A model generated the notes under the pieces. It was not told the DNA's origin and made no database searches. It saw only the letters and a program-made list of their open reading frames with translations. Below are positions 8,655 through 10,280 of a stretch of DNA of 35,011 nt, one piece after another. The stretch's first letter is position 1. Every line of letters starts with the position of its first letter. Position numbers and translations under genes: made by a program. The DNA comes from an uncultured Chloroflexota bacterium (GTDB lineage: Bacteria; Chloroflexota; Dehalococcoidia; UBA2979): NCBI GenBank assembly GCA_903917615.1, contig CAIXBH010000024.1, positions 1 through 35,011 on the forward strand. The letters are read 5' to 3'.

Positions 8655-9809
8655 TTACGGGTGCGAGCTCAACCAGCGCGCGAGAACCGTCGCCGTTGCA
8701 TCGGCGGCCCGTTCCGTGGCGTGCGCGATTGCCTCGTCGATGGATGCGCCGGCTGACGCGAGCGGCTCGGCGTCGGCGATGCCGACCGGCAGGCCATCGA
8801 CACTGCCCGCCACCGCGATGCACGGCGTCTGCATCTCGGCGGCCACCGCCGCGACGTGCGCCACTGCCTTCCCGTAGGCGGTCTGGGCGTCCAGTCCGCC
8901 CTCGCCCGTGATGACGAGATCCGCTGCGGCGATCGCCTCGCGCAGGCCAATCGCGTCCCCGACGAGCGCCGCCCCCGACTCGATGCGTGCCTGCGGCATG
9001 GCCGCGAGCAGCCCGACCGGGAGGCCGCCGCCGGCGCCGCTCCCCGGGCGCTCGGCGACATCGAGCCGCAGGTCCCGGTCGAGGGTGCGCGCCCAGCGTG
9101 TCAGGGCGTACTCGAGCGCGGGGGCTTGCCAGTCCGCGAGACCCTTCTGTGCGCCGTACACCGCGGTTGCGCCCTCGTCGCCCAGGAGGACGTTGCGCAC
9201 GTCGACCGCGATGCTCAGGTCAACAGCCGCGAGGCGCGCAGCGGTGGCCGCCTCAATGCGCGCCAGGCGGGCGAGGTGAATGCCTCCCGGCGGCAGGTCC
9301 GCGCCCGCGAGGTCGAGGAGCCGCACGCCCAGTGCTTGCGCGGCGCCCGCGCCGCCGTCGTTCGTGGCCGTGCCGCCCACGCCGAGGACGATCCGGGTCA
9401 GGCCCGCATCGATCGCGTGGCGAATCTGCTCCCCCACGCCGAAGGTCGAGGCACGGGTGGCATCGCGGTCGCTTGCTGGAAGCAGTGTCAGGCCAGCGGC
9501 GGCGGCAGCCTCGATGACGGCGAGCGGTGGGGCTCCGCTTCGCTCGACGCGCGCGTAGGCCGCCTCCACGGGTGTGCCGAGCGGACCGCGCACGGTGTGC
9601 CGGACGAGCGCGCCGCCGGTGGCGGCCGCCACGATCGCGACTGTGCCGGGGCCTCCATCCGCCATCGGCAGGAGCACTACCTCCGCATCCGGAAGCGCTC
9701 GTCGGACGCCCTCAGCAATCGCGGCGGCGGCCTCGGCGCCGGTCAGCGAGCCTTTGAACTCTTGCGGGCAGACGAGGACGTGCCGAATCCGATCGGGGTC
9801 GGTGGTCAC
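8655..9809 (-). CDS. glxK: Glycerate kinase (GlxK/GarK family)
   Basis: A 384-residue enzyme that phosphorylates glycerate with ATP, linking glyoxylate or serine metabolism to glycolysis. Family motifs are in order: CPQEFKGSLTGAEAAAAI (14-31), PMADGGPGT (usual DGGEGT), GVGGTATNDGGAGAAQALG (about 145-163), the glycine-rich GSGAGGGLPVGLLA, and TGEGGLDAQTAYGK near residue 305. Length fits the family. Translation starts at GTG 9809, which overlaps the stop codon of the upstream membrane peptide (TAGTG), indicating translational coupling. The product position (2- or 3-phosphoglycerate) cannot be told from sequence. Confidence 0.93.
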   Translation of the reverse strand: MTTDPDRIRHVLVCPQEFKGSLTGAEAAAAIAEGVRRALPDAEVVLLPMADGGPGTVAIVAAATGGALVRHTVRGPLGTPVEAAYARVERSGAPPLAVIEAAAAAGLTLLPASDRDATRASTFGVGEQIRHAIDAGLTRIVLGVGGTATNDGGAGAAQALGVRLLDLAGADLPPGGIHLARLARIEAATAARLAAVDLSIAVDVRNVLLGDEGATAVYGAQKGLADWQAPALEYALTRWARTLDRDLRLDVAERPGSGAGGGLPVGLLAAMPQARIESGAALVGDAIGLREAIAAADLVITGEGGLDAQTAYGKAVAHVAAVAAEMQTPCIAVAGSVDGLPVGIADAEPLASAGASIDEAIAHATERAADATATVLARWLSSHP

Positions 9810-9985
9810 TACAGGAACCAGCCGGCGAGGTGGAGCGCGGCGCTGATCAACACGGCGACGACGTAGATCAGCCCGAGCTTGCGGGCCTGTTTGCCGAGCT
9901 GCCGGAACTGGCGCGGGCGAAAGACCATCATGAGGAGGGTCAGCACCATCGACACAAGGATGATGTCCTTCAGCAGCGTCGTCAC
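9809..9985 (-). CDS. Two-helix membrane peptide (58 aa)
   Basis: A small membrane protein with two hydrophobic helices (about 5-22 and 38-55) joined by a basic linker FRPRQFRQLGKQARKLG, so the loop should be cytoplasmic. The GTG at 9985 is chosen because GGAGGG lies six bases before it. A longer reading frame with ATG at 10006 is possible but has no ribosome site. Its stop overlaps the glxK start by one base. I do not recognise the family. It may be a small subunit or unrelated to glycerate metabolism. Confidence 0.65.
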   Translation of the reverse strand: MTTLLKDIILVSMVLTLLMMVFRPRQFRQLGKQARKLGLIYVVAVLISAALHLAGWFL

Positions 9986-10027
9986 AGGGCGCCCTCCGGC
10001 GGACATCGTATCGGCCCGCCCGGAGGC

Positions 10028-10082
10028 TTGACTAGAACAAGCGTTCGCTACTACATTGGACATCCATTTAGAACAGATGTTC
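10028..10082 (+). promoter_or_regulatory. SOS-controlled promoter with two LexA boxes
   Basis: The promoter is TTGACT (10028-10033), an 18-base spacer and TACATT (10052-10057). One LexA box of the Gram-positive type, GAACAAGCGTTC, fills the spacer (10035-10046). A second, GAACAGATGTTC, lies just past the start site (10071-10082), centred 36 bp away. Both match GAAC-N4-GTTC exactly. LexA bound here would block polymerase. The minus-strand membrane peptide gene is 43 bases away and might also be affected. Confidence 0.75.
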
Positions 10083-10097
10083 CTGAGGAGCCCTGTG

Positions 10098-10280
10098 ATG
10101 GCCTCGACCTTCTCCGCACCCGCCACCGCGCCGGACGGCTCCAGCATCGCGGCACCAACGCGCACACGGCGCCGGTTCAGTTACGCCGGCCCTCGCTGTC
10201 CGCAGTGCGCTGGCCCCCTCGTCTTCGGCGAAGGCTGCAGCGTCTGCCCGGTCTGCGGCCACTCCTCCTGCTCGCTCTAA
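10098..10280 (+). CDS. SOS-regulated zinc-ribbon peptide (60 aa), like the C-terminus of B12-dependent ribonucleotide reductase
   Basis: A 60-residue protein whose first 30 residues are Ala/Thr/Pro/Arg-rich and whose second half holds six cysteines: C34-x2-C37, C47-x2-C50-x2-C53 and C58. The spacing CPxC-x4-LVF-x-EGC-x2-C-x2-CGxSxC resembles the cysteine-rich tail of class II (B12-dependent) ribonucleotide reductases. Here it stands alone with no catalytic domain. The start is ATG 10098 (or GTG 10095, in frame), seven bases after GAGGAG. The upstream promoter carries two LexA boxes, so expression should rise after DNA damage. A link to nucleotide supply or repair is inference. Confidence 0.6.
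   Translation: MASTFSAPATAPDGSSIAAPTRTRRRFSYAGPRCPQCAGPLVFGEGCSVCPVCGHSSCSL

Follow-up and report, generated by a model that had tools for sequence, protein, structure and literature searches.

A candidate LexA-controlled microprotein family in Dehalococcoidia resembling the free tail of class II ribonucleotide reductase

Studies of Stackebrandtia nassauensis NrdJd have shown that the six cysteines of its C-terminal cysteine-rich domain (CRD) carry electrons and that the domain binds zinc, and four of the cysteines were assigned to zinc and the other two to a redox pair (PMC5704485). Electron transfer between subunits is possible in this enzyme, the one CRD-bearing class II reductase that has been characterised closely; thioredoxins and glutaredoxins failed as reductants, leaving the native donor unidentified (PMC5704485). 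When the CRD and a CRD-less NrdJ were expressed separately, no activity was obtained with TCEP, although the separate CRD was an aggregated 233-residue fragment and not the zinc core (PMC5704485). This assay is the only published test of a separate CRD that we found. In Pseudomonas aeruginosa, the dithiol exchange is carried out by a separate polypeptide, NrdJb, which serves the class II reductase in trans (PMC4520616). A lead connecting LexA with NrdJ in the P. aeruginosa literature came down to indirect effects only. Our limited search of open-access text returned no description of a LexA-controlled class II reductase or of a free CRD. The SOS-linked class I reductase of Escherichia coli (nrdAB) places dNTP supply under damage control, and SulA and YneA are small, LexA-repressed effectors that are induced in the SOS response. 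The locus described here differs from these systems in that the reductase is of class II and the tail is a free protein, and we claim no sequence relation to them.

The locus lies in a 35,011-nt stretch of DNA (the window) and encodes the peptide MASTFSAPATAPDGSSIAAPTRTRRRFSYAGPRCPQCAGPLVFGEGCSVCPVCGHSSCSL. Like the CRD of S. nassauensis NrdJd, the peptide has six cysteines, spaced in almost the same way and proposed to divide likewise into zinc ligands and redox pair (PMC5704485), and its profile match to the reductase C-terminus runs from end to end. Unlike that CRD, it is encoded as a stand-alone protein behind a LexA-type promoter of its own, and eight copies of the family are deficient in the redox pair. 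It shares with NrdJb, from the split class II reductase of P. aeruginosa, the character of a separately encoded zinc-finger tail (PMC4520616, PMC9669993). However, NrdJb also contains an IscU-like domain, belongs to the nrdJab operon and cannot be dispensed with in vivo (PMC4520616, PMC9669993), whereas the peptide consists of the zinc finger only, is encoded elsewhere under LexA-type boxes, and occurs where most NrdJs retain their tail.

The first-pass annotation had reported two exact GAAC-N4-GTTC boxes at a TTGACT/TACATT promoter, one in the spacer and one downstream, followed by a first gene of 60 residues with six cysteines. Both boxes were found as described, and translation confirmed the ORF (Table 1). 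No other exact box occurs in the window, and 15 bases separate the end of box 2 from the ATG. The flanking genes are metabolic, with a minus-strand glycerate kinase on the upstream side and a split transketolase on the downstream side, and this neighbourhood is kept in the genus and in several other genera of the order. A mobile-element origin was rejected given this conserved neighbourhood, the lack of a plasmid match and the weakness of the matches to phage records, two of which are annotated as reductases. A small divergent membrane-protein ORF (MSAGGRPVTTLLKDIILVSMVLTLL..., 9809-10003, minus strand) starts near the boxes, and several genera have a homolog of it upstream of the peptide gene; therefore the operators might act on this ORF too.

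Table 1. Positions of the promoter elements and the peptide gene in the window
Feature	Position	Strand	Basis
-35-like hexamer TTGACT	10028..10033	+	read from sequence
LexA-type box 1, GAACAAGCGTTC, within promoter spacer	10035..10046	+	exact match; position conserved in relatives
-10-like hexamer TACATT, 18-base spacer	10052..10057	+	sequence
LexA-type box 2, GAACAGATGTTC, 3' of the -10	10071..10082	+	exact match
Shine-Dalgarno-like purine run TGAGGAG	10084..10090	+	read from sequence; inferred
Free CRD microprotein, 60 aa; core = residues 31-60	10098..10280	+	translation, homologs, codon constraint, NF006417 match

Among the peptide loci of the order with at least 260 bp of upstream sequence, 26 of 27 promoters carried an exact box. 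The flanking background contained one exact box in 70.5 kb (0.0035 expected per 250 bp), a rate that rules out chance occurrence. Box pairs 20-45 bases apart were present at 21/27 peptide loci of the order, and TTGAC abutted the first box at 22/29. Of the free-CRD loci beyond the order, the 33 that were looked at first and the 4/4 loci of family f34 (f1, g15 and similar labels are anonymous handles for families and genera) all had at least one box with no more than one mismatch; usually there were two, 20-50 bases apart and often reading GCACN4GTTC or GAACN4GTGC. The first-pass annotation had named boxes missing from relatives as a refutation, and the result went clearly the other way: LexA-type boxes were found upstream of the peptide in 12 families of the class, on all free-CRD copies with enough upstream DNA and usually in pairs.

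The peptide operator matches the lexA and recA boxes of the same lineage. An exact box preceded recA in 15/15 order genomes checked; recA itself was not found in the window's own assembly, which is incomplete. Upstream of lexA, a site with at most one mismatch was present in 26/30 cases, mostly reading GAACATATGTGC, GAACATATGTAC or similar, which supports the one-mismatch variants as operators. The clade has a LexA with both a DNA-binding and a peptidase domain: it matches PF01726, extends 207 aa from the domain start and has C-terminal GTSMIDALINDGD and ETTLKK motifs, as read from the sequence. An ImuB-like and a DinB-like gene of the window's genome also have exact boxes upstream. Control of the peptide by the LexA/SOS system is well supported by these comparisons; LexA would bind the peptide boxes, and DNA damage would induce the gene. 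Two further exact boxes were observed in the same genome. One, GAACGTGCGTTC (L078:1501-1512), has a GNAT acetyltransferase ORF on one side and a divergent acidic ORF on the other, both possibly further SOS genes, and the other (L081:1501-1512) is upstream of an ORF that by eye resembles a tyrosine recombinase.

Over the 29-codon core of the peptide, six genomes of the genus exhibited 148 synonymous and 19 non-synonymous codon differences, and the differences between congeners fell 19/0/153 on the three codon positions. These codon patterns show a real translated gene under constraint, and together with the class-wide conservation they rule out a non-coding ORF. Most genomes of the order had a peptide homolog (33/44, a count that takes in G019, whose sole match is a reductase tail). 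Free CRD copies were found in 12 families of the class, with short free ORFs in 11 families beyond the window's order. Their length ranged from about 31 to 96 residues, and since the shortest, MKRHRCPDCGGPLVYGEGCACCPVCGFTACG, has only 31 residues, the zinc core is probably the functional unit, with a variable N-terminal arm. In a 400-genome sample of the phylum, with a capped number of candidates scored per genome, no free copy from outside the class exceeded the threshold. Close homologs were on public contigs titled Dehalococcoidia, Dehalococcoides or Chloroflexi MAGs, and some of these titles point to a freshwater habitat. Short ORFs with a very similar six-cysteine motif (e.g., CPDCGGPLVPGGGCPVCAVCGWSECS) were also observed on viral contigs (L328:1854-2078, L331 at about 2000-2130, and L330:1-90, which is cut by the contig end). 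They are not accompanied by a LexA-type box and are possibly phage free CRDs.

The cysteine spacing of the peptide is C-x2-C-x9-C-x2-C-x2-C-x4-C. The short NrdJ of the same genome, whose tail CPDCGQQLQYAERCLSCRFCGYSKC is complete with six cysteines, has an identical spacing, bearing out the earlier remark that the cysteines are spaced as in a class II reductase tail. Homology was confirmed by a curated-family search, by profile-profile comparison and by the matches to phage reductases. Among 18,950 NCBIfam models, the best for the peptide was NF006417, B12-dependent ribonucleotide reductase (E 6.8e-7), aligned over positions 727-759 of 759 (the last 33), and the same model ranked first for two other free-CRD homologs. 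No Pfam family exceeded its cut-off for the peptide. The lower-ranked peptide matches in the order were mostly NrdJ C-termini.

Genomes of the order contain two types of NrdJ, short and long. The tail consensus of the short type, CPDCGxQLxYxExCLxCRxCGYxKC, matched the free-peptide profile with an E value of 6e-16 (hhalign), compared with 6e-4 for the long type (e.g., CxECGQLMMVRNGTCLKCMNCGATSGCS). The long tail is therefore disfavoured as the origin of the peptide relative to the tail of the short, boxed NrdJ. That the free peptide is a detached copy of a class II NrdJ tail is well supported by these sequence comparisons.

The short NrdJ was linked to the peptide by regulation as well as by sequence. 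In the window's genome (G000), two exact boxes lie upstream of it (contig C231:4343-4431, L031), and it appears to be a class II reductase of the SOS regulon. Among 27 short NrdJ genes of the order, 18 had an exact box, six a one-mismatch box and three none, and the box was about 40-60 bases upstream of the start codon. The long NrdJ had no consistently placed box. In several genomes of family f16, a GCACAGACGTTC site lies close to the start of the equivalent NrdJ; f16 apart, the matching NrdJ had no box in most families outside the window's order. The peptide is on contig C24 of the same assembly, so the two genes do not share an operon.

The six-cysteine peptide and the short NrdJ co-occurred by genome (29/30 vs 2/14, Fisher p = 5e-8) and by genus (12/12 vs 0/5), on a phylogenetically clumped distribution that includes several incomplete genomes and with p values that ignore phylogeny. 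Clear LexA matches (E < 1e-9) were found in 40/44 genomes, the remaining weak matches being longer, different proteins. Since 7 of the 10 genomes with neither the peptide nor the short NrdJ still have a clear LexA match, SOS capacity alone fails to explain the pattern, and the idea that the peptide merely tracks LexA was judged insufficient. Most NrdJs here keep their own CRD; G035 is an exception. The short NrdJ of G035 and that of G037 are both truncated just past the first CxxC, and the other reading frames close by hold no CRD; a free CRD is present alongside the truncated enzyme in G035 and was not found in G037. A separate observation concerns the f34 NrdJ genes L302, L303 and L304, which contain an insert of about 360 residues at model position 282 that is absent from G146; its position suggests an intein.

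We tentatively favour, at somewhat short of an even chance, a mechanism in which a LexA-controlled free CRD docks in trans on NrdJ and delivers electrons to it. The gene product would be a free-standing C-terminal zinc CRD of the B12-dependent class II ribonucleotide reductase, and LexA would repress the gene from two operators, the first within the promoter spacer and the second a short way downstream. Upon DNA damage, RecA would trigger the self-cleavage of LexA and the peptide would be produced, in the window's order together with the short NrdJ paralogue that bears its own box. The peptide is predicted to wrap one zinc with C34, C37, C50 and C53 and to expose C47 and C58 as a dithiol. It would then dock at the entrance to the NrdJ active site, in the manner of the native tail or of the separate subunit NrdJb, and re-reduce the active-site disulfide, giving higher turnover and more dNTP for repair. 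The sequence itself establishes the boxes and how widely they are kept, the homology, the constraint on codons and the association with the short NrdJ; LexA binding, induction, docking, electron transfer and the direction of the effect are what we infer. Beyond the losses of redox cysteines, four points speak against this mechanism: the separate NrdJd CRD failed to give activity (PMC5704485), most NrdJs here have a CRD already, the matching NrdJ mostly has no box beyond the window's order, and the co-occurrence is clumped on the phylogeny.

The conservation of the cysteines bears directly on this mechanism. The four predicted zinc cysteines were kept in 69/69 free copies. The six-cysteine pattern, C-x2-C-x9-C-x2-C-x2-C-x4/5-C, was complete in 61/69, as was the predicted redox pair; the eight remaining copies had lost one or both cysteines of that pair and no others. 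This confinement of the losses supports the zinc/redox assignment made in S. nassauensis for the free peptides as well. In genus g15 (G038, G039), the redox pair was lost and the short NrdJ was not found, whereas in family f34 all four copies lacked one or both redox cysteines although the NrdJ keeps a complete six-cysteine tail. The notion that redox-pair loss always follows loss of the short NrdJ thus holds in g15 and fails in f34. The losses, including all of f34 with its intact NrdJ tail, argue that electron transfer is not the universal function. What all copies share is probably docking, to which most lineages would add dithiol transfer, and the redox-dead copies of these two lineages suggest that docking or regulation may outweigh electron transfer.

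The free CRD may instead dock on NrdJ in a competing or regulatory role, in which it displaces the native tail or alters the oligomeric state, so that the reductase is inhibited or retuned and the thiol pair is secondary. We give this a lesser but real chance. The strict retention of the zinc cysteines, next to a redox pair lost in eight copies that still have LexA-type boxes, speaks for such a role, and CRDs are known to mediate NrdJ oligomer formation (PMC5704485). Five residues (G39, P40, E45, G46 and P51) are invariant in the free form and not in NrdJ tails, suggesting a specific interface. However, most copies have conserved the redox pair, and the short NrdJ of the order is itself boxed; co-induction of an enzyme with its inhibitor would be less natural.

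In the AlphaFold2 model, the core residues 31-60 were ordered (pLDDT about 87) with three short strands, and the arm was of low confidence. It is unlikely that the peptide, as a zinc ribbon descended from the NrdJ tail, now serves another SOS target (e.g., DNA, RNA polymerase or the replisome), although the basic stretch RRLRR before the zinc core in the window's order would suit this, as would the weak fold matches, which are to ribosomal, RNA polymerase and PriA zinc ribbons. The fold search with the peptide model gave no match reaching E 0.001, the basic arm is missing in many homologs, and co-occurrence with the short NrdJ points to the reductase. The small, cysteine-rich and stress-controlled nature of the peptide would also suit a generic thiol or zinc buffer under genotoxic stress that has no specific partner, but its near-invariant non-cysteine residues, its reductase-specific motif and its co-occurrence with NrdJ make this highly improbable. 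Two options were first offered for the peptide, action on the reductase or an unrelated zinc protein. The former is favoured by its co-occurrence and its shared regulation with one NrdJ paralogue, and the existence of redox-dead copies weighs on the other side.

Returning to action on NrdJ, we regard it as evenly balanced whether this is a class-wide family of SOS microproteins acting on class II ribonucleotide reductase in trans, as a dedicated electron carrier in the place of the native reductant of CRD-bearing NrdJ enzymes or as a detachable tail through which damage signals set the activity of the reductase. A free, damage-controlled CRD would be a concrete candidate for a trans partner of the CRD-bearing NrdJ, and the redox-dead lineages would provide a natural experiment in which docking is separable from electron transfer. 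If the proposal is true, a B12-dependent reductase joins the SOS regulon, and these bacteria would have an undescribed way of boosting or tuning the supply of DNA precursors after damage.
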